Source: Paraniabella hibiscisoli (GTDB lineage: Bacteria > Bacteroidota > Bacteroidia > Chitinophagales > Chitinophagaceae). From it: 64,000 nt of DNA. The stretch covers positions 558,001 to 622,000 of the forward strand of contig NZ_JAKWBK010000001.1 in assembly GCF_022512515.1 (NCBI RefSeq). Direction: 5' to 3'. Both the position numbers and the translations under genes were made by a program. Below the pieces are notes generated by a model. The model was not told the DNA's origin. It saw only the letters and a list, made by a program, of their open reading frames with translations, and did no database searches. Below, in pieces: positions 46,521 to 63,806 of the stretch (positions are counted from its first letter, which is position 1; each line of letters opens with the position of its first letter).

Positions 46521-49204
46521 TTATTCCAACACAGGACTCAACCATCTTTCTGCATCTTCTATACTCATACCCTTCCTTTTTGCATAATCTTCCAACTGGT
46601 CTCTACCTATTTTACCTAAGCCGAAATAATGACTTTTAGGATGTGCAAAATACCACCCGCATACGGATGCCGGTGGATCCATCGCCAGGCTTTCAGTCAT
46701 AGTTATACCTATATTATCCGTTACTTTTAATAAATCAAACAGCTTATGTTTCTCCGTGTGATCGGGGCAGGCAGGATACCCCGGAGCAGGTCTTATACCA
46801 TCGTACTCCTCCCATATCAGGTCTTTATTGGTAAGATGCTCTTCCTTGGCATAACCCCAATATTCTTTCCTTGATTTTTCGTGAAGGCATTCTGCAAATG
46901 CTTCTACGAAGCGGTCAGCCAAAACCTGCACCATTATCTTATTGTAATCATCAAACTCAGCAGCAAACTGATCAATGTGCTTTTTAGCACCATGAATAGT
47001 AACCGCAAAGGCGCCCATATAATCCTGTCCTTTCTCCTTCGGCATTACAAAGTCCGCTAAAGAAAAGTTGAAATGTCCCGCCGCCTTCTTCGACTGCTGC
47101 CGCAATGATTCCAGCTTTACCTCTGCTCCATTAGCCTCAATAGTAATGGTATCAGCATTATTACTGGTGGCAGGCCAGAAACCGATAACGCCATCGGCTG
47201 TAAACCATTTCTCGTTTACAATACGTTCCACCATCTTTTGCGCTTCACCTAAAAGCTTGGTAGCTTCTGCTCCAAACTTCTCGTCACTCAATACCTGTGG
47301 ATACCTACCTGGCATTTCCCAGGCAATAAAGAAGGGACTCCAATCCAGGTATTTTGCTATTTCTCCCAGATCAAAGTCTTTAAATACCTGAACACCGTCT
47401 ACAGCTGGCTTAGTGGGTATATAGTTATCCCAATCCAGTTGTTCTTTAGCAGCAATTGCATCTTTATAAGCAATGAGATCTTTTTTGTTCTTATTCGCAA
47501 ATTGCTGACGTAGTCCCTCGTATTCGTCATTTGTTTTTTGAAGTAGTACACTTTTTTCTTTACCCAATAAAGTACTCACCGCCGTTACACTTCTTGATGC
47601 ATCCAGTATATGCATCACTCCATTATCGTACTGAGGAGCGATCTTCACTGCAGTATGCATACGGGAAGTAGTAGCACCGCCAATCAGCAATGGCTGCTTC
47701 ATATTACGGCGTTTCATCTCGTGGGCTACGTGCACCATTTCGTCTAAAGAAGGAGTAATCAAACCACTTAATCCAATAATATGAGCACCCTCTCTCTCGG
47801 CAGTGTCGAGGATTTTATCAGCAGGCACCATCACGCCCATATCTATTACATCATAGCCATTACAGCCCAACACAACACCTACGATATTTTTCCGATATCG
47901 TGCACATCCCCTTTTACCGTTGCTAACAATATTTTACCAGCTCCTCCCGCCTGTGCTGATGGATTCGCCAGTTTTTCTTCTTCAATAAAGGGTGTTAACC
48001 AGGCAACAGATTTTTTCATCACCCGCGCACTTTTTACCACCTGTGGCAGGAACATTTTACCCGCACCAAACAGGTCTCCTACAACATCCATACCGGCCAT
48101 TAAAGGACCTTCAATCACTTCCAGTGGCCTGGGGTATTTCTGCCTGGCTTCTTCTGTATCTGTATCAATATAATCTGTAATGCCATTTACCAGGGCATGT
48201 TTCAAACGTTCTTCTACAGTGTTATCCCGCCATGCATCATTCTTCTTTTCTACCTTACCTTCAGACTTAACGGTCTCTGCAAAAGTGATCAGTTTCTCGG
48301 TGGCTTCGTTATTATCGTTATTTCGATTAAGAATAACATCTTCACAAAGCTGTCTTAACTGGGGTTCTATTTCATCATACACCACCATTTGCCCTGCATT
48401 TACAATACCCATATTCATACCCGCCTTAATAGCATAGTATAAAAAAACGGAGTGCATAGCTTCACGCACCGGCTCATTACCTCTGAAGGAGAACGAGAGG
48501 TTACTTACGCCACCACTTATTCCTGTAAGGGGCATTAACTGCTTAATGCGGCGCGTGGCTTCAATAAAATCCACGCCATAGTTATTTATCTCTTCCAAAC
48601 CGGTTGCTACTGCAAATATGTTAGGATCAAAGATGATATCCTGTCCTTTAAAGCCCAATTGCTCGGTTAGTATTTTATAAGCGCGATGACAAATTTCTAC
48701 TTTTCGATCTTCTGTATCAGCCTGGCCTTTTTCATCGAAGGCCATTACAATAACTGCCGCTCCATAGTTTTGACAGGTTATCGCCTGCTCAATGAATTTC
48801 TGTTCTCCTTCCTTTAAAGAAATAGAGTTTACAATACATTTACCTTGTACACATTTTAAGCCGGCCTCAATAATTTCAAACTTTGAAGAATCGATCATCA
48901 ACGGCACTTTACATATATCAGGCTCACTTTGTAAGAGGTTAACAAAGGTGGTCATAGCCTGTACGCCATCCAGTAGTGCATCATCCATGTTAATATCGAC
49001 CACCTGGGCGCCGTTCTCTACCTGCTGGCGTGCTACGCTTAATGCTTCTTCATATTTGTTTTCACGAATAAGACGCGCGAATTTCTTAGAACCCGTTACG
49101 TTCGTTCTTTCACCAATATTGATAAAATTTGTTTCAGGACGTACTACTAACGGCTCTAAGCCTGAAAGACGGAGATATGGTTTGATGTAATTAACTTCTG
49201 ACAT
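46521..49204 (-). CDS. metH: Methionine synthase, C-terminal part (pterin-binding, cobalamin-binding and activation domains), frameshifted
   Basis: About 895 residues. Transfers the methyl group of 5-methyltetrahydrofolate to cobalamin and onward to homocysteine, together with the separately encoded N-terminal part. The pterin-binding domain starts [20 protein letters not shown]. The cobalamin domain has the His ligand in GDVHDIGK. The SAM-binding activation domain ends with [16 protein letters not shown] one-base indel near 47878 splits the gene inside the cobalamin motif ([18 protein letters not shown] after repair). It follows the DUF1016 gene by 11 bases. Confidence 0.93.
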
Positions 49205-49215
49205 GCGCTGTATTC

Positions 49216-50309
49216 TTATTTATTTTGCGGGTATTGTTGTAATAATTTCAATACTTGTTTTTCAGGGAAAAACATTTTGTATTTGCTGGCAAATATTTGT
49301 GTATTCTCATTACCCAAAGTATATCGTATTGTATTTTCTTTTTTGCTTTTGCATAGGATAATTCCTATCGTCTTATTTTCTTCTTTGCTTTTTATTTCCT
49401 GATCGTAATAATTAACATACATCTGTAATTGTCCTAAATCCTGGTGCTTTAAAGAACCAATTTTAAGATCGATTAATACAAAGCAACGCAATATCCTGTG
49501 ATAGAAAACAAGATCTATATAATAGTCTTCATTATCTACCCGTATACGTTTTTGCCTGTCAACAAACAAAAACCCTTTGCCTAACTCTTTTAAAAAATCT
49601 TGTAGTTTACTGATGATAGCGGTCTCCAGATCGCTTTCCGTATACACGTCCTGCTCTTTGAGCTCCAGGAAATCAAGTATGTAGGGATCCTTGATAATGT
49701 CTGCCGGGGATGTTATTACATGACCTTTTTACTTAATTCTTTAACCCTTTTCTTATTGCGACTGAGAACAAGACGCTCGTATAATGCACTATCAAACTGC
49801 CTCTGTAACTCGCGCACGCTCCAACTTTCATTATAAGCTTCAACTGTATAAAAGCTTCGTTCGTTTAAATCGCCGATTTTCATTAGTAAAAGATAATGCG
49901 ACCAGCTAAGTGTAAAAACGGATTTCCGAGACAGTGTCTCGGATTTTGAAACTGAAGATTGGGGTTTTCTTAATTTCCGAGACACTGTCTCGGATTTCAC
50001 CTGCGCTTCAAGAAACTCAACATACGTTCTTTTATATTCATTATAAAAGCGGCGCATATTCTCCAAATTATCCACTGAAAAACCCTTTCCAAACTCCTTT
50101 GTAAGCTTTAATGAAATAGTTTTTAACACGCCGGAAGCATAACCTGCCCTGGTGCTGCCCTGTTGCTCAAACTCCACAATTAATCTACCTATATGGTAGT
50201 AGGTTTCTACCAGTGTAGTATTAATGATCCTGTACAGTTCTTCCTTAGATTGCTGTACCAGGTTTTTTATACCAGAAAATAATGACGTTATTCCAGGCTT
50301 GCTATTCAT
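49216..50309 (-). CDS. DUF1016/YhcG-type PDDEXK nuclease, frameshifted
   Basis: About 364 residues. The N-terminal helical domain has [20 protein letters not shown] and [19 protein letters not shown]. The C-terminal PDDEXK nuclease core is visible as [35 protein letters not shown] and [13 protein letters not shown] one-base shift near 49728 joins them through [20 protein letters not shown]. Between the domains lies a repeat-bearing linker encoded by two palindromes. DUF1016 proteins are linked to restriction-type and defence loci. Here the gene is squeezed between the two halves of methionine synthase with gaps of 9 and 11 bases. Confidence 0.85.
49925..49943. repeat. 19-bp palindrome inside the DUF1016 coding region, copy A
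   Basis: TCCGAGACA-G-TGTCTCGGA: two perfect 9-base arms around one base. On the coding strand it encodes SETLSRK. Copy B lies 51 bases away at 49976-49994 with the same arms and the opposite centre base. Confidence 0.9.
49976..49994. repeat. 19-bp palindrome inside the DUF1016 coding region, copy B
   Basis: TCCGAGACA-C-TGTCTCGGA, the same arms as copy A. On the coding strand it encodes SETVSRK in the linker before the nuclease domain. Confidence 0.9.
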
Positions 50310-50318
50310 AGTAATAAC

Positions 50319-51334
50319 TTACAAAACTTCCTCCACTACAGGTAGCACTCTTGGTTGTACAGTTTTTACCGCCTTCGCAATTTCCCTGATATGATCGGGT
50401 GTAGTGCCGCAGCACCCTCCTACAATGTTCACAAAACCCTGGTTGGCCCAATCATCGAGAAAAGCGGCCGTTTGTTCAGGCAATTCATCATACTCACCCA
50501 TTGCGTTGGGCAAGCCGGCATTAGGATAAGCAGATACATAACAACCCGCAATCTGCGATAACTCTTCTACGTGCGACCTCATTTCCTGGGCGCCTAAGGC
50601 ACAATTAAGGCCGATACTTAATGGATTGGCATGTGCTACAGAAATATAAAAGGCCTCCAGTGTTTGTCCGCTTAAAGTACGGCCGGATGCATCTGTGATG
50701 GTACCGCTGATCATAATCTCACACTCCGACCCCGGATGTTCTCTGAAGTATTTCTTTGCCGAAAATATAGCGGCTTTCGCATTCAGCGTATCGAAAATGG
50801 TTTCTATTAAAAGAATATCTGCACCTGCTTCTATTAATGCATTAATTTGCTCAGTGTAAGCCACTACTACTTCATCAAACGTTACTGCACGATAACCCGG
50901 ATTATTTACATCGGGAGAAAGACTTAATGTCTTATTCAACGGTCCTATTGCCCCGGCAATAAATTTCGAGCATTATCGCCGGTCTCCTGTTGAAATTCGG
51001 CAATGGCATCTTTTGCGCATTTTACAGAAGCGATATTGAGCTCATGTGCAAAAGCCTGCATATCATAATCTGCCTGTGCAATAGAAGTGCTGCTAAAGGT
51101 ATTGGTTTCGATAATATCAGAACCCGCCTGCAAATATTCTTTATGAATGGCCTTAATAATATCAGGGCAGGTAATACTTAAAAGGTCGTTATTGCCCTTC
51201 ACGTCTGTATGCCAGTCTTTAAAGCGATCGCCCCTGTAATCTTCTTCGGTAAGTTTATAGCGTTGAATCATGGTACCCATAGCACCATCAAGTACTAATA
51301 TCTTTTCATTCAATAAGTTTCTTATTGTACTCAT
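50319..51334 (-). CDS. Homocysteine S-methyltransferase, N-terminal part of split methionine synthase, frameshifted
   Basis: About 338 residues. The homocysteine- and zinc-binding barrel of methionine synthase: [15 protein letters not shown], the first zinc ligand in [11 protein letters not shown] and the paired ligands in [12 protein letters not shown] one-base indel near 50955 breaks it; repair gives [20 protein letters not shown] 51332-51334 ([15 protein letters not shown]) is preferred over the TTG at 51358. It acts with the C-terminal part encoded at 46521-49204; the split arrangement is known in other Bacteroidota. Transcription seems to run through the DUF1016 gene. Confidence 0.92.
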
Positions 51335-51404
51335 TCGTAACCATTTAAATTTTTGCAATATTGAACTAGCTGTAAACGCTGGAACCAGGAGATTGGATCT
51401 TACG

Positions 51405-55997: not shown

Positions 55998-58582
55998 TTA
56001 GTTAAAAGCATAGCTCAGGGTCACACCGAAAGTACGGGGATCACCCAAAACGCGGCGTAATGTCCTGCGTTACCACCTGCAGGTAACAATTGTTCAAAAT
56101 AGCCTTTATCTAAGAGGTTACGTCCCCAGGCGAAAGCAGAGAATCCTTTTGTAGCTCTAAATCCAAGTCTCGCATTCACCAGTCCATAACCGGCTACATT
56201 TAAATAGGCCGATGGAGAAGGGCTGGAAGAAAAACCTGAACGGGCAAAGAAATCAGCTCCTATAAAGAAACGGTTAGCTCTTCCGAATAAAGACGATGGT
56301 GTGGAATATTCACCGCCTAAAGAACCTGCCCATTTGGAAATACCTGGTATTGCACCACCAGAAATATCCTTAAATGCTACCTGTACATTTTCTGCATTGG
56401 TAGCTCCTGTTTCCTCCAATGGTAAAGGGGCATTTGTGAATTTTACATAAATACCTTCAGAATAAGCCAAGGCCCCGTAGAAATTAAAGTGATGATTCAG
56501 GCGGTAAGATGCATCTGCTTCGATACCTCTTACACGCACTTTATCTGCATTAGCAATATACCCCCTGTTTACACCCAGCTCAGCCGATTGTACGTTGGTC
56601 TGGTAATCTTTAATATCAGAGTTATAAGCTGCTATATTGAAGGTAAGATCTGCAGTCAGGCTCGTTTTAACACCCACTTCATAATGCTTGGTATATTCAG
56701 GTCTGATAACCGCCAGGTCTGTTGCAGGTTGTCCGTTCACTGTTGGCAAACCTGCCACATTTACACCTACCGGTTTATAGCTGGTAGAAAAAGTACCGAA
56801 AGCATTTATTTTTCTTGAAGGCCTGTAAGCCACTGTTACCTGGTAGGTAGCATTACGCTCATAAGCATCTGCCTCATAAAACTGGTTGCTGTATACTCCA
56901 TTTTTTAATGCCAGTAGCGCAGCATCTGTTGTTTGTAAACCACCGTAGGTTTTACGATCATATACAACCTGTTTTTCATCATAATTCAATCGTATGCCTG
57001 GCTGAATATGGAAATGATCAATAAACTCCCAATCTACGTTAGCGAATACCGCAGCACTTTTAGAGCGAATAGATGAATTCGTTTTTATACCATAGCCTTC
57101 GAAGAGACCCGGAGTTTTCCAAAGTGCGCTGGTAGAGCTTTGTGAAAAGCGCCACTGATCGCGACCAGACTCTTCTGTTCCGTCAATTTTCACCTCCTGC
57201 CCCAGGTAAAACACCCCAATAACACCGCTCAGCCTGTCTGTAATATCGCCGGCATACCTGATCTCCTGGGAGATATTTTTATGTTTGGCAGGGTTTTGAG
57301 ATTTAGCCAAAGCCTGTAGGCCTGTAAAATCCCTGTCATTAGATGGATCCCAGTTCCAATAACGCCATGCTGTAGTAGCAGTAAGTGTACCTGGTCCTAT
57401 CTTACTATCGATATTAACAGATGCGCCTCCGATTTCATTACCTGAGTTCCATGGTGTATCATGATCGATCACGCGCATAAAAGCGTCTACCTGACCTGCT
57501 TTATTAATGTTGGGCAAGGTATAATTCAGGTCAGAAGTTATCGCGTTAAACTGCCTGTAAGCTGGTCTTTTTGTTGTAACAACACCTGCTACCACCTGTG
57601 CATAACCATCAGGTCTCTGCTTATTATATTCACCCGCTAAAGTAACAGATGTATTGTCTGAAACATTATACAGGAACTGTGTACGTAGTCCTAAATTGTT
57701 GATATCATTTGTATATTTATCCGTGGCGATATTGTGCACTGTTCCGTCTCTTTGTGTTCCGGAGAAAGACACCCGGGCTGCCAATCTTTTGGTTAGTGGG
57801 CCTGTTACTGAGGCTTTAGCCTGTATAAATCCGAAGTTACCGTAGCTTACTTCGAGATTACCGCCTGGTACAAAACTTGGCTTGCGTGTAGTAATATTAA
57901 TAGCACCGGAAGTAGTGTTTTTACCAAATAATGTTCCCTGCGGACCTCTCAATACCTCTATTCTTTCAATGTCTACAAAATCAAGTGTGGCAACCGCAGG
58001 ACGTGCATAATACACTCCATCTACATAGTAACCCACACCCGGATCCAAACCGTCGTTAGTAAGGCCGAACGGAGAACCTAAACCACGTATATTAATACCG
58101 GTATTTCTTGGGTTGGAAGTATACATCTGTAAAGAAGGTACAATCTCTTTCACACGGGTAACGTTAAATGCACCCGATTCCTCGATCTGTTTACCACCTA
58201 CTACTGATACATTAATAGGCACATCCTGTAATACCTCGCGGCGACGCCTGGAAGTAATAACAACGGTATCTGTCTGGTATAATACCTGCAGTTTCACGAT
58301 AAGCGAATCCTGAAGATTTCTGACTGCTATATTTCGTATTGCATAATTAACTGATGATACCGTAACGGTGAAAGGCACTTTAGGAACCTGTGATAAAGTA
58401 AAAATACCTGCACCATCAGTTGTTGTACCCTGTGTAGTACCTTTAATTACTACGCTCGCCCCTGGAAGAGGATCATTATTTTCGTTGACTACTTTACCAG
58501 CCAGCTGTGCATTTGCCAGCAACGGCAGAAAGGCTAAAATAAGTAATGTTAGTTTTAATTGGCTCGATTGTTTTTGTTTCAT
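55998..58582 (-). CDS. TonB-dependent receptor, frameshifted at the last strand
   Basis: About 860 residues from ATG 58580-58582 (MKQKQSSQLKLTLLILAFLP). Signal peptide, carboxypeptidase-like domain (AGKVVNENNDPLPGASVVIK), plug with YYVDGVYYARP and IEVLRGPQGTLFGKNTTSGA, and a C-terminal barrel. The frame as read ends at 56021. A one-base shift there gives VLGDPRTFGVTLSYAFN, a proper last strand ending in an aromatic-Asn, with stop 55998-56000. The barrel resembles FecA-like siderophore receptors, but the upstream poly-Cys leader and nearby cysteine genes suggest that a sulfur compound is imported (inference). Confidence 0.9.
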
Positions 58583-58663
58583 TGTTCTGTGCTTTGATAA
58601 ATTCTGGTGATATAGAGCTTGCATGCCCGGCGTATCGATTATTAAAAAAATGGGCTTTTACAA

Positions 58664-58684
58664 AGTCTATTATTTATGTAGACT
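58664..58684 (-). promoter_or_regulatory. Palindrome 2 in the leader of the TonB-receptor gene
   Basis: AGTCTA at 58664-58669 and TAGACT at 58679-58684, nine bases apart. On the minus strand it reads ATTAGTCTAC at its 5' side, the same ten bases as one arm of the promoter palindrome at 58820-58845. It lies between the leader ORF and the receptor ATG and is followed by CCCATTTTTTT on the minus strand, so it could be an operator or part of a weak attenuator hairpin. Confidence 0.5.
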
Positions 58685-58712
58685 AATATTATAAAAAATA
58701 GTTGGTCTTGTA

Positions 58713-58784
58713 TTAACAGCAACAACAGCTTTTACCTGAAAAGGCGCTACAACAACAACTCTTATAATACTCTTGTGTGTACAT
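58713..58784 (-). CDS. Poly-cysteine leader peptide (candidate cysteine attenuator)
   Basis: A 23-residue ORF from ATG 58782-58784 to TAA 58713-58715. It encodes Met-Tyr-Thr-Gln-Glu-Tyr-Tyr-Lys-Ser, three Cys (10-12), Ser-Ala-Phe-Ser-Gly-Lys-Ser and four Cys (20-23). Seven of 23 codons are Cys, the last directly before the stop. It begins about 12 bases after the expected transcription start of a promoter with a perfect TATATTTG box and lies 131 bases before the TonB-receptor ATG. The layout is that of an attenuator leader that stalls ribosomes when charged tRNA-Cys is short. Similar poly-Cys short ORFs act this way in mycobacteria (established); the role here is inference. Confidence 0.6.
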   Translation of the reverse strand: MYTQEYYKSCCCSAFSGKSCCCC

Positions 58785-58801: not shown

Positions 58802-58835
58802 CAAATATAGGGGCTCTAAATTAGTCCACAAAAAA
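58802..58835 (-). promoter_or_regulatory. Promoter of the leader ORF and TonB receptor
   Basis: On the minus strand TATATTTG (58802-58809) matches the Bacteroidota -7 consensus exactly. TTTTTTG (about 58829-58835) lies 19 bases upstream as the -33 element. The -33 element sits inside the palindrome at 58820-58845. Confidence 0.65.
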
Positions 58836-58845
58836 GTAGACTAAT
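58820..58845. promoter_or_regulatory. Palindrome 1 overlapping the -33 element
   Basis: Minus-strand ATTAGTCTAC, six T, GTGGACTAAT: two 10-base arms with one mismatch. It overlaps the -33 box and shares ATTAGTCTAC with the palindrome at 58664-58684, so it is a good candidate operator for a dimeric regulator. Confidence 0.55.
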
Positions 58846-59307: not shown

Positions 59308-59573
59308 ATGAAAAAGCAAAGATTTAGCGAGACGCAAATAGCGTCGATTTTAAAGCAGTACGAAGGTGGCCGCGAGGCCCTGGAGCTGTGTCGGGAGCAT
59401 GGCATAAGCAAAGCAACATTGTATAACTGGCGTAAGAAGTATGCCGGCATGGATTCCAGCCATATCAGAGAGCTCAAGGCTCTTCAGGACGAGAACCGCC
59501 GCCTTAAACAAATGTATGCAGAGTTGATGCTTGATCATCAGCTTGCCAAACACATTATCGAAAAAAGTTATAA
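59308..59573 (+). CDS. IS3-family transposase OrfA
   Basis: About 88 residues. An HTH of the transposase-8 type (FSETQIASILKQYEGGREAL, CREHGISKATLYNWRKKYAG) followed by a leucine-zipper-like helix (ELKALQDENRRLKQMYAELM). As read, the frame continues to 59613, but adding one A to the A6 run at 59561-59566 gives the usual OrfA end IIEKKL with stop TAA 59571-59573. That change also places orfB in the -1 frame across an A7 slippery site, the normal IS3 programmed frameshift. Confidence 0.88.
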
Positions 59574-60496
59574 AGCCCTGTCAAAAACGAGAGCTGGCGG
59601 AATCTGTAATTAAAGAACAATCCATTAGTGTTGGCAGGGCTTGCAGAGTAATTCATTTGCAACGCTCTCTTTGGTATTATCGAAGTGGTAAGGATGATAG
59701 CGCCATTATCGATAAGCTTAGTTCTTTGGCGGATCGTTTTCCAACACGAGGTTTTGATAAGTACTATGCGATCATCCGCATTGAAGGAAACAAATGGGCC
59801 AGAAGCCGTGTGCTACGTGTGTATCGTGAGATGAACCTGTGCAGGCGCAGAAGGCATAAGAAAAGGCTTCCCTCACGAATCAAAGAACCGCTTCAAAAGC
59901 AATTACTGCCCAACCAAAGTTACAGTATGGACTTCATGTCTGATAGCCTGGTGAGCGGTAGAAAATTGCGCATATTTAAGGTGGTGGATGACTGTACGAG
60001 AGAGTCACTTGCAGTATGGTGCGATTATTCTATCACCGGTCAGAAAGTAACTGAGATACTGGAGCAGATCACTGCAGAAAGAGGAAAGCCTCTTCAAGTA
60101 AGAGTAGACAATGGGCCAGAGTTCACCGGAAAAGCTTTTAGTGAATGGTGCAGTGATCGATCAATAATTATTAAATACATACAACCCGGCAAGCCGATGC
60201 AAAATGCCTATATAGAAAGATTAAACAGAACATACAGAGAAGATGTGCTAGATGCGTATTTGTTTGAATCATTAGAGGAACTCAGAATACTCAGCGATGA
60301 GTGGCAGCATGGCTACAACCACCTAATGCCGCATCAATCGTTAAACAATCAAACGCCGGCAAAGGCCCATCAGTCGGCCCTGCCGGGGGCACTTCATTTA
60401 AAACATATGACTGAACGGCAACAGCAGAACCCTGATCAACCATTTAACCAACAATCATATATTTTAAATGAACAATCACCAATTTGTCTAACTTAG
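59567..60496 (+). CDS. IS3-family transposase OrfB (DDE integrase)
   Basis: About 310 residues, made as an OrfAB fusion by frameshifting. An HTH_21-type region (RFPTRGFDKYYAIIR) precedes the rve integrase core. The catalytic acids are in SYSMDFMSD, RVDNGPEFTG and, 35 residues on, the Glu of YIERLNRTYREDVLDAY. The frame is intact, so the element may be active. No ATG is needed because expression is through OrfA. Confidence 0.9.
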   Translation, partial: VIKPCQKRELAESVIKEQSISVGRACRVIHLQRSLWYYRSGKDDSAIIDKLSSLADRFPTRGFDKYYAIIRIEGNKWARSRVLRVYREMNLCRRRRHKKRLPSRIKEPLQKQLLPNQSYSMDFMSDSLVSGRKLRIFKVVDDCTRESLAVWCDYSITGQKVTEILEQITAERGKPLQVRVDNGPEFTGKAFSEWCSDRSIIIKYIQPGKPMQNAYIERLNRTYREDVLDAYLFESLEELRILSDEWQHGYNHLMPHQSLNNQTPAKAHQSALPGALHLKHMTERQQQNPDQPFNQQSYILNEQSPICLT

Positions 60497-61254: not shown

Positions 61255-62823
61255 TTACAGAAACAATGCCTTGCAAATAGTAATAAGGCTCATTACTATA
61301 ACCAGAACACCTACCACCAAAAACATTTTCCTTACCGGTAAGCGGGAGGTAAGCATTGCAGAAAAAGGAGCAGTGATGATGCCCCCTATCAGAAGGCCGG
61401 CAACAATATTCCAATGATGGATACCGATGGTAAAAATAAAAGTAACAGCGCTGGTAACCGTAAGAATAAATTTAGCAACAGTAGAACTGCCTATTACATA
61501 ACGGGGTGTTCTGCCATTTTTGATAAAAGTGCCTGTAACCAACGGTCCCCAACCGCCGCCGCCAAAGGAGTCGATAAAGCCGCCCACTAATCCCAGCAAA
61601 GGAATATTTGTTTTTTTCTTTTCGATTTTCCGCTCCTTGCTTTTAAATACATTGGTCAGAATTCTTACCCCGAGATATAATGTATAAGCCGCGATAAACG
61701 GTTTAGTAATTGCAGCATATTTCTCCCCTACATAACTCAACAACAAAGCGCCTATTACAGCGCCTATAATTGCCGGTAACGCCAGCGCCTTGATCAGCTT
61801 TTTGTTGACATTACCTAACCTGAAATGGCTGATGCTGCCCGCTGCTGTAGTAAAAGACTCAGCAGAATGAATGCTGGCACTTACTACAGGTGGAGGTACA
61901 TTAAGCATCAACAGGATAGTGGTGCATATCACGCCATACCCCATGCCCATAGAGCCGGCCACTATTTCGGCCAAAAAACCCGTGAGCAACATCCAGTAAA
62001 ATAAATGATGATCTTTATTTAACGCCAGCAGAATATCATCAACAAGATCAAATGCATATAACGCATATATGCTTAAACCAACCAACAATACGATTCCTAA
62101 TATGATGAGGTACCAGTTGGTACTCTTTTGCGCTTTAGCGACTACATCAGCAGACTCCACTATTTCCGCAGCCGGCTCCGTTTCTGATTCAAATGCTTTT
62201 AAAGCTTCGTCCGGGTTTTCAACCAAAGAGCGTGTCACATTATTCAACACTTTTACCTTATGATCAAAATCGCCTGATAGCTTATTACGTAAGGCCTGCA
62301 TATTATCCAGCACATCATCTATCTCATCAGGTATTGCTTCATTTAGTGTTTCCTTCAAACGCTTGGCGATAGTTGGGGATTTCCCATTGGTAGAAATAGC
62401 TATCTTAAGATTACCTTTCTTTACAACAGAGCCCAGGTAAAAGTCGCAAAGCTCAGGCTTATCAGCCACATTCACCAGTTTCTCAAAAGCTATGGTATCT
62501 TCTCTTACCTGTTGCGCTACCTGTAAATCGTTTACTGCCGCAATTACCAAATCAGCGGCTTCTATATCTGCTTTTTGGTAAGCTCTTTCTTCCAATACGA
62601 TAGTTGAATAAGGTGCTACAAATTCACGAACAGCATCGCTTATTTGGATGGCAACAAGCTTTATTTGCGTTGCAGGCGCATTCTTAACTACCGCCTGCAG
62701 TTTTTCTAACCCAATATTACCACCACCAATAATTAAAAGCTTCAATTGTTCCAGCTTCAAAAAAACCGGGAACAGATTGTTTCCAATATCAGCCTTATCA
62801 TTAGTATGTGAAGATTCGCTCAA
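61255..62823 (-). CDS. Fusion of siroheme-synthase N-domain (precorrin-2 dehydrogenase/ferrochelatase) and TauE/SafE (TSUP) transporter
   Basis: 522 residues, intact. Residues 15-210 match the CysG N-terminal part: PVFLKLEQLKLLIIGGGNIG (NAD-binding), NVADKPELCDFYLGSVVKKG and IAISTNGKSPTIAKRLKE. They would oxidise precorrin-2 and insert iron to make siroheme for sulfite reductase. Residues 235-522 form a TSUP-type membrane transporter with about eight segments and the motif GSMGMGYGVI. TSUP proteins export or import sulfite and other sulfur compounds. The fusion couples siroheme supply to sulfite traffic. It follows cysE on the same strand in a sulfur-assimilation cluster. Confidence 0.88.
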   Translation of the reverse strand: MSESSHTNDKADIGNNLFPVFLKLEQLKLLIIGGGNIGLEKLQAVVKNAPATQIKLVAIQISDAVREFVAPYSTIVLEERAYQKADIEAADLVIAAVNDLQVAQQVREDTIAFEKLVNVADKPELCDFYLGSVVKKGNLKIAISTNGKSPTIAKRLKETLNEAIPDEIDDVLDNMQALRNKLSGDFDHKVKVLNNVTRSLVENPDEALKAFESETEPAAEIVESADVVAKAQKSTNWYLIILGIVLLVGLSIYALYAFDLVDDILLALNKDHHLFYWMLLTGFLAEIVAGSMGMGYGVICTTILLMLNVPPPVVSASIHSAESFTTAAGSISHFRLGNVNKKLIKALALPAIIGAVIGALLLSYVGEKYAAITKPFIAAYTLYLGVRILTNVFKSKERKIEKKKTNIPLLGLVGGFIDSFGGGGWGPLVTGTFIKNGRTPRYVIGSSTVAKFILTVTSAVTFIFTIGIHHWNIVAGLLIGGIITAPFSAMLTSRLPVRKMFLVVGVLVIVMSLITICKALFL

Positions 62824-62868: not shown

Positions 62869-63806
62869 TCAGCTATGTTCTGCAAAACAAAAATCTGACA
62901 CTCTCCTGAACGGACGGGCAGATAGCAAAACGATAGTAGCAGCCAGCCGGCCTAATAACACTATTTCTTTTTTAGTGGTCTTTAAAATTTTGCTGACAGA
63001 ATCCTTATGCGAAAAGCTGTCTTTATCGGCTACTTCACTTTGATTATATACCAGGGAATTGGGTGGTACGCTAAAAGTAACCCAGGCGTTTCCTCCAATA
63101 ACACAATCTCTCCCGATAGTAATATCACCCAGAATAGTAGCTCCTGAGTAAATAATTACATTGTCTTCGATAGTCGGATGCCTTTTGGATTTTTTTTTTG
63201 TTTTTGCCGAATTCAACGCACCTACGGTTACGCCCTGGTACATTCTAACATCATTGCCAATTACCGAAGTTTCCCCGATAACAACGCCGGTACCATGATC
63301 TATAAAAAGTTTTTCCCAATAGTTGCATACGGATGAATATCGATGCCCGTTTTACTATGCGCGTATTCAGCAAAAAGTCTGGGTAAACCACGTATACCTT
63401 GTTTACGTAACTGGTTTGAAATACGGTAAACCGCAATGGCATAGAAACCTGGGTAGGTTTGCAATATCTGGCTTACATTCAATGCTGCAGGATCATTTGC
63501 TACGAACGCTGCTGCATCATCCTGCAGGGTTGCGTAAATATCAGGCAATGCGGCAAAGAAAACTTCAACAGCTTGCTGAGACTTAGCTCCATCATTCACC
63601 ACATCGTATATTAATGTGGCCAGGTGACTTTGCAGCGAATAAAAGCCTTTCTCCAAATCACTTTCTTTCTGATTTACCCCTGTTTTAGGTATAAACAGAA
63701 ATTGAAAGATATCATCGATAAACTGGTGTGCCAGGTCCTTATCAGGCAGGTTACCTAGTTTAGCATTATTTTGTAACAGGAGTTTTATAAAATTCTTACT
63801 GCTCAT
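62869..63806 (-). CDS. cysE: Serine O-acetyltransferase, frameshifted
   Basis: Acetylates serine to O-acetylserine, the carbon skeleton for cysteine. The N-terminal helical domain is followed by left-handed beta-helix hexapeptide repeats. The catalytic region is [20 protein letters not shown], then [15 protein letters not shown] one-base indel near 63300 separates [14 protein letters not shown] from FIDHGTG. The last 25 residues run into a common genomic repeat and may not be real; another indel near 62960 could end the protein at TTKKK. The sulfite reductase gene is upstream and the CysG/TauE gene is downstream. Confidence 0.88.

Follow-up and report, generated by a model that had tools for sequence, protein, structure and literature searches.

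A candidate cysteine-responsive leader attenuator upstream of a TonB-dependent receptor gene in Bacteroidota

According to the accessible parts of the published papers, poly-Cys leader ORFs are found at the cys operons of Actinobacteria (Seliverstov 2005, PMC1262725), and those of mycobacteria have been reported to act by translation attenuation (Canestrari 2020, as cited in PMC13236596). In Rhodobacterales, the leader uORFC-8-2 carries tandem Cys codons before cysS, the cysteinyl-tRNA synthetase gene (PMC8632094), and the E. coli tna operon has been named among the cases of leader control linked to Rho (PMC1262725). Leader peptides are mentioned in general terms in the accessible text of flavobacterial and Bacteroides transcriptome papers (PMC9723704, PMC7366714), and the accessible portion of the open-access literature yielded no account of cysteine leaders from Bacteroidota or upstream of TonB receptors.

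The DNA examined here (the window) is a stretch of 64,000 nt from Paraniabella hibiscisoli, whose features of interest are collected in Table 1; peptides are written up to their stop codon throughout. A sequence-only reading of the window had put forward a candidate cysteine attenuator composed of a 23-codon ORF with Cys at codons 10-12 and 20-23, a promoter in front and a TonB receptor behind. Translation bears out this arrangement, and the ORF occupies the coordinates then given, on the minus strand, which had been left unstated. The attenuator is supported by the present analysis as well, whereas the inverted repeats and the wider set of leaders had been overlooked. With considerable confidence, the locus can be regarded as a putative cysteine-responsive, ribosome-mediated attenuator (responding to Cys and Met in Flavobacterium) that is layered on a transcription switch.

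Like the actinobacterial and mycobacterial leaders, the leaders described here have Cys runs near the stop codon of a short ORF preceding cysteine genes, and they share with the actinobacterial ones the lack of a conserved terminator hairpin, for which Rho was proposed by Seliverstov (accessible part of PMC1262725). Unlike the actinobacterial leaders, they occur in another phylum, have targets that include TonB/SusC-like receptors, PhyH, metX/metY, and cysS, combine Met with Cys codons, and are accompanied by promoter inverted repeats and, in Mucilaginibacter, by a SAM riboswitch in tandem. Those preceding cysteinyl-tRNA synthetase genes resemble uORFC-8-2 in being Cys-codon leaders, whereas uORFC-8-2, from alphaproteobacteria, combines an intrinsic terminator with a consensus structure and is described as exclusive to the region upstream of cysS (accessible part of PMC8632094).

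Table 1. Positions of the leader, its promoter, and neighbouring features in the window
Feature	Position	Strand	Basis
Leader ORF MYTQEYYKSCCCSAFSGKSCCCC	58713..58784	minus	translation; 23 codons
First Cys run, leader codons 10-12	58749..58757	minus	sequence and translation
Second Cys run, leader codons 20-23, abutting the stop	58716..58727	minus	sequence and translation
-7 element TATATTTG (TAnnTTTG)	58802..58809	minus	sequence; Bacteroidota consensus
-33 element TTTG	58829..58832	minus	sequence; 19 nt from the -7 box; Bacteroidota consensus
Inverted repeat TTAGTCTAC-TTTTTT-GTGGACTAA over the -33 region	58821..58844	minus	sequence; likely operator
Weaker second inverted repeat, located between the leader stop and the receptor ATG	58663..58686	minus	sequence
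TonB-dependent receptor (CarboxypepD_reg, Plug, beta-barrel)	56021..58582	minus	domain search and orthologue comparison
IS3-type transposase pair, between sulfur cluster and leader	59308..60496	plus	HTH_Tnp_1 and rve domains
NAD_binding_7/Sirohm_synth_M and TauE sulfite-exporter fusion, sulfate-assimilation cluster	61255..62823	minus	domain search
Serine acetyltransferase (cysE), frameshift at about 63243-63300	62869..63806	minus	domain search

The TTTG and TAnnTTTG elements upstream of the leader are presumably a typical Bacteroidota promoter. As expected of an attenuator, and as judged from sequence only, a short ORF lies between a putative promoter and the receptor gene. Its Cys codons are mostly TGT, and its stop is separated by 130 nt from the receptor ATG at 58582, which is the start fitting the orthologues; the ORF list gives an upstream in-frame ATG at 58624. 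The final residues of the window receptor are unlike those of its orthologues, and an indel near 56021 is likely to lie behind this deviant C-terminus. The best solved relatives of the receptor are mainly plug-region matches to siderophore, colicin, and metallophore receptors, and no cut-off was reached by any of the 25 NCBIfam models listed out of 26.

A sulfate-assimilation cluster is located upstream of the leader on the same strand, extends partly past the window end, and has genes broken by frameshifts. Beyond cysE, it comprises ORFs resembling sulfite reductase, its flavoprotein, a tetrapyrrole methylase, and the GTPase subunit of sulfate adenylyltransferase, whose families were confirmed by intact homologues in L140, a named Niabella MAG locus in which the intact cysE homologue matches cysE/EpsC; two genes with a PAPS_reduct domain (cysD and cysH by resemblance) were also found. 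The sequence-only reading had counted sulfite reductase, cysE, and siroheme genes within 5 kb of the leader, which holds for the cysG/TauE fusion and for cysE (within about 5 kb), whereas sulfite reductase starts at about 63895 and overruns the window end. The transposase pair between cluster and leader is one that we take to be of the IS3 family, and the TauE gene of the sister genome G004 extends right up to the promoter of the leader. Compared with relatives, frameshifts were observed in cysE, sulfite reductase, and the receptor tail, as well as in cysM elsewhere in the genome, and the assembly looks indel-prone. At 46521-51358 of the window, methionine synthase is spread over several ORFs, with a gene pair that is presumably DUF1016-like (49216-50309) between two of its pieces; the methionine synthase of L140 consists of two adjacent ORFs.

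The sequence-only reading had tied its proposal to conservation of the ORF and its Cys codons in relatives, and both are indeed kept within the genus. The receptor is present in 12 of 17 genus genomes (broken into pieces in G003), and a Cys-bearing short ORF was found between promoter and receptor in all 11 orthologues with a readable upstream region, G003 being left out. The direct orthologue of the window leader in G004 is MYTQKYYRTCCCRAFPGVSCCCG, and the weakest leader of the genus is MHRSLFFSIMRSATRCIPAAGFRCCR, whose genome is also without a clear promoter repeat. The leader of L140 is identical to that of G001, a genome of the window's genus.

By using a profile of the 11 genus receptors, the best 80 of 297 named loci were selected, covering Chitinophagaceae, Sphingobacteriaceae, Flavobacterium, and Cytophagales, and 74 of the 80 receptor genes with usable upstream sequence were compared with 583 other genes of the same loci. 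The search in relatives that had been proposed by the sequence-only reading yields a clear enrichment of sulfur-residue tails before receptor orthologues of other families. Upstream ORFs with at least two Cys per six residues precede 57/74 receptor genes vs 109/583 other genes; the counts are 36/74 vs 13/583 for at least three Cys, and 15/74 vs 0/583 for at least four. When each of the 20 amino acids was examined for at least three occurrences in the last six residues, Cys (27/74 vs 5/583, p 3e-23) and Met (10/74 vs 1/583, p 2e-9) were followed by Asn (3/74 vs 0/583, p 0.0014) and Ile (8/74 vs 20/583, p 0.0085), with none of the remaining amino acids below p 0.3; these p-values and the one given below overstate independence because the species are related. 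The two sulfur residues, Cys and Met, stand out by far among the 20 amino acids. Tails with at least four Cys plus Met were found in 29/74 vs 1/583, and those with at least two Cys in 51/74 vs 35/583; the 47 of 74 receptor genes without a Cys-rich tail by this test include many with RCC or CMC tails. Receptor leaders end in ACCCC, KCCCCCC, and GYMCCCC in Mucilaginibacter, in HCCCCCCC in a Chitinophagaceae strain, in PLCCCCC in a Sphingobacteriales MAG, and in MMCMC(W) or CMCMC in Flavobacterium.

Several side observations were made at these loci. An Arg codon CGA directly 5' of the Cys run (CGA TGT TGT or similar) was seen in Chitinophagaceae, among the loci listed in L089, L090, L097, L102, L103, L105, L110, L124, and L137. 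In a groundwater Bacteroidetes MAG (L165:6435-6555, minus strand), the short ORF MKHTVLKTSKPKQGYLSVTLHSITPFFMMACMCCCCCMC has a dense Cys/Met tail, and the next long ORF is 442 nt away downstream. A DUF2490 gene is present near the receptor in 35 of the 80 loci, mostly downstream (e.g., L157:12909-13643), in Flavobacterium, Cytophagales, and Chitinophagaceae, and its product is a candidate partner of the receptor; in L163, a YeiH/PF03601 gene follows the receptor in place of DUF2490.

Conservation was also examined column by column in equal-length related leaders, the groups being hand-picked. Cys columns were kept in 95/126 pairwise comparisons vs 394/636 for other residues (p 0.004), with the corresponding counts being 12/12 vs 14/30 for cysM leaders, 15/15 vs 5/18 for PhyH leaders, and, a modest difference, 33/63 vs 77/187 for the largest Niabella group. 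A silent TGT/TGC change was found in 20 of 95 conserved Cys codons; therefore, it is the residue that is kept and not the letters. As expected of an attenuator, a conserved run of codons for amino acids of the pathway is present.

A gapless poly-Cys pattern, TGYTGYTGYTGYTRA, occurs at four places in the 6.1 Mb genome of the window and at none in the reversed control. Three of the four (the window leader, MLALPTCICCCCC, and MNILLAFTPLYCCCCC) share the promoter inverted repeat and a short ORF, and the fourth has neither. Matches were found in 53 of 59 relatives, with individual places unsorted, and eight further genomes gave 45 places, 30 of which were fetched. Eleven of the fetched places are outside long ORFs and correspond to three receptor leaders, four leaders of O-acetylhomoserine (OAH) sulfhydrylase, one each of a metX-like gene, cysS, and PhyH, and one of unknown target; a twelfth place (L191) is the receptor leader of L127, overlapped by a mis-called start. 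The other 18 fall within long ORFs and were discarded as chance matches; as a stand-alone detector, the pattern was rejected. These 18 poly-TGY matches, together with the prevalence of TGT in the window leader, would fit a reading in which the Cys runs stem from (TTG)n repeats that arose by chance, or from TGT triplets that act as a DNA or RNA signal; its probability is close to negligible, considering the mixtures of TGT and TGC with their silent changes, the interrupted runs (CCSCCC, CICMC, and CMCMC), and the position-specific enrichment. It is also extremely unlikely that the leader peptide is a small functional protein, such as a metal or thiol binder or a redox sensor, as its high Cys content and the fact that short ORFs can have a function might suggest. 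Only the sulfur residues recur, whereas length, start, and other residues vary freely; with the last ATG as the start, leaders would be as short as MCCC or MCCCC; and for 34 of 38 intergenic ORFs of the CCC type across the 80 loci, a gene (mostly the receptor) is found on the same strand and at most 400 nt away.

Cys leaders were also found before genes of cysteine and methionine metabolism. In a survey of 57 genomes, 53 of which could be parsed, leaders with at least three Cys in six residues were detected 56-122 nt before cysS in seven of the 53, such as MFFLSHTCCCCCCC and MKKYFHTCCCSCCC, and the one target checked (L193/L238) scored above the cysS cut-off; no such leader was found in the other 46, among them all 15 that belong to the genus of the window (a set that does not contain the genome of the window itself). 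The window's genome has a Cys leader before cysM, followed by cysE; this cysM is frameshifted and below the cut-offs of its models, and the serine acetyltransferase EpsC is just above its cut-off. OAH sulfhydrylase (metY) leaders were identified in four Mucilaginibacter loci (L192, above the cut-off, and L184, L196, and L207, 85-88% identical to it), and one locus has a metX-like gene just under the cut-offs behind its leader. Each of the five metX/metY leaders (L183, L184, L192, L196, and L207) is located 3' of a SAM riboswitch (RF00162), with mixed Cys/Met tails such as GCICMCCCCC. Behind the leader stop, the same five loci have a CACGT...ACGTG-like hairpin that lacks a U-run. PhyH dioxygenase is a target in two clades, the window's genus and Mucilaginibacter (L203); it was confirmed behind leaders in L017 and L068, and a short-chain-dehydrogenase-like gene comes after this target. 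Further targets include SusC-like receptors, two of which are followed by SusD genes, and a short ORF without a Pfam match that we take to be DUF2147-like.

Because leaders precede cysS, cysM-cysE, and metY, charged tRNA-Cys would be the natural signal, and the cysS leader is the strongest pointer to it. A different signal would act in an arrest of the TnaC type, in which the nascent peptide itself would capture a ligand (cysteine in its free form, sulfide, or a metal) inside the ribosomal tunnel and stall when this ligand is abundant, so that the response would be opposite or ligand-specific. The TnaC peptide of E. coli is conserved and senses free tryptophan. Similar to tna, the critical codons here are beside the stop, where a halted ribosome could cover a site for Rho; in contrast to tna, uncharged tRNA would be the signal, and the peptide lacks conservation. 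Many leaders have their Cys run immediately next to the stop, a feature of peptides that stall during termination, and the recurrence of CGA right before the run in Chitinophagaceae also fits such an arrest. On the other hand, the residues before the Cys run are unconserved across targets and clades, unlike those of arrest peptides; Met joins Cys in Flavobacterium and Mucilaginibacter; and the cysS leaders fit charged tRNA, not a free ligand. An arrest of this kind is thus considered unlikely, and sensing of charged tRNA-Cys is preferred.

The promoter inverted repeat has a spacer of 6 nt in the window and 7 nt in G004, the T-run being one base shorter in the window. On visual inspection, a similar copy was recognized in 10 of the 11 orthologues from the genus, L084 being the exception, and such repeats are also present at other leader loci. 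A dyad search of the window's genome with a 7-nt spacer, which the window's own site escapes, returned seven places. Five of these have a Cys ORF after the repeat (MLALPTCICCCCC, MNILLAFTPLYCCCCC, MLIPLKYCCC, one ending in SLCCCCS, and MTSCCSPIEAK), and two have none (C2:241545 and C1:123106). Exact repeats were detected in 12 of 30 genomes (the window's own counted), in two of 14 genera. As judged by eye, 18 of the 27 exact repeats outside the window's genome have a Cys ORF, three are doubtful, and six are without one, two of which are second repeats before a receptor. The second repeat itself was seen by eye in at least 10 of 11 genus orthologues, and also in Chitinophagaceae loci, among those listed in L089, L090, L097, L102, L110, and L137. 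Homologues of Rrf2 regulators were identified in 24 of the 80 receptor loci and not found in the other 56, many of which are short; in 15 of 17 Flavobacterium-type loci, the Rrf2 gene is directly upstream of the leader, for example in L157 (PF02082, E 5e-33). The window's genome has three Rrf2 loci, one adjoining the sulfate cluster (C1:630757-631151, in two pieces) and another 2.5 kb from the PhyH leader (C1:117101). The promoter repeat is probably an Rrf2-type operator, to which an Rrf2 protein would bind. Since six Cytophagales loci (L116-L119, L121, and L122) have an inverted repeat near the receptor start and no Cys leader, the operator layer seems to be more general than the leader layer. 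These Cytophagales repeats, together with the presence of one repeat on the promoter and another ahead of the receptor start, might suggest that regulation is left to operators alone, the short ORF serving for standby or re-initiation or being a by-product, with no role in sensing. Such a reading is very unlikely, as it leaves unexplained both the excess of Cys and Met among the 20 tail amino acids and the Cys leaders before cysS and behind SAM riboswitches. A leader that senses cysteine on top of the operator is therefore favoured.

With regard to the step after stalling, a classical attenuator with an intrinsic terminator was rejected: no terminator-like site exists in the window between 58400 and 59000, and none was obvious by eye among 26 folded relatives. 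In Chitinophagaceae, the T-run after the leader stop is not preceded by a GC-rich hairpin. The folding of the window leader is ordinary (z 0.33), no Rfam match, including the SAM riboswitch RF00162, was detected in the window between 58300 and 59100, and the cysS leader of L193 has no Rfam match at the gathering threshold. For the Flavobacterium leaders, base pairing is possible between the Cys/Met tail and a conserved ACTAATTACATATA-like stretch immediately upstream of the receptor ATG. Own tail-start pairs beat swapped partners at 0.05 or below in 13 of 16 Flavobacterium rows and in one of 41 rows elsewhere, a set that keeps L163, whose ORF was wrongly picked. The helix alignment contains eight consensus pairs, in which changes affect one side only and none is compensatory, and the ACTAATTACATATA-like stretch may instead be a second operator. 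Sequestration of the start site was rejected as a general mechanism, the pairing holding for Flavobacterium only, and may apply in that genus. The C-over-G skew after the leader stop is 0.36 (n 30 of 31, two from Flavobacterium) vs 0.02 in 199 controls, whose transcription is unproven, and the C-rich, G-poor stretch outside Flavobacterium would suit Rho. Given such a stretch without an intrinsic terminator, either masking of Rho by the stalled ribosome or translational coupling would fit.

In the mechanism proposed, transcription would start just 5' of the leader, at a promoter overlaid by the operator for a sulfur regulator that is probably of the Rrf2 family, and a ribosome would begin translation on the leader. 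If charged tRNA-Cys is plentiful, the ribosome would pass the terminal Cys codons, terminate, and leave, and receptor levels would stay low; if it is scarce, stalling at the stop-proximal Cys codons would allow the receptor to be made, which would bring in a source of sulfur. What follows stalling is probably not the same in every clade: in Flavobacterium, the tail would pair with the receptor start region and stalling would free the start, and in other clades the stalled ribosome would mask Rho-dependent termination or act through translational coupling. In view of the results on terminators, folding, pairing, and C/G skew, we settle on ribosome stalling at Cys codons as the proposed sensor. 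Support at the level of sequence comes from the ORF, its position, the conservation of Cys, the recurrence at other targets, the repeats, and the Rrf2 genes near some loci, from which we infer translation, stalling, the direction of the response, Rrf2 binding, and the sulfur cargo. On balance, we also lean towards a widespread Bacteroidota sulfur regulon in which leaders gauge Cys (Cys and Met in Flavobacterium and Mucilaginibacter), act on top of an Rrf2-type operator or a SAM riboswitch, and govern biosynthesis, cysS, and TonB/SusC-like uptake, with Rho or start-site sequestration as the last step.

In the literature found, leader-peptide control by cysteine has so far been confined to Actinobacteria and to cysS of Rhodobacterales, and Bacteroidota would be a further phylum, with new kinds of targets (TonB-dependent uptake, transsulfuration, and a dioxygenase) and a two-layer design. 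The Cys+Met tails of Flavobacterium would sense both sulfur amino acids at once. Moreover, Cys leaders may offer a sequence-based way to pick sulfur-supply receptors among the many TonB receptors of Bacteroidota, by which the sulfur cargo of leader-bearing receptors becomes directly testable. If the proposed mechanism is true, these receptors would form a class of sulfur-source receptors.
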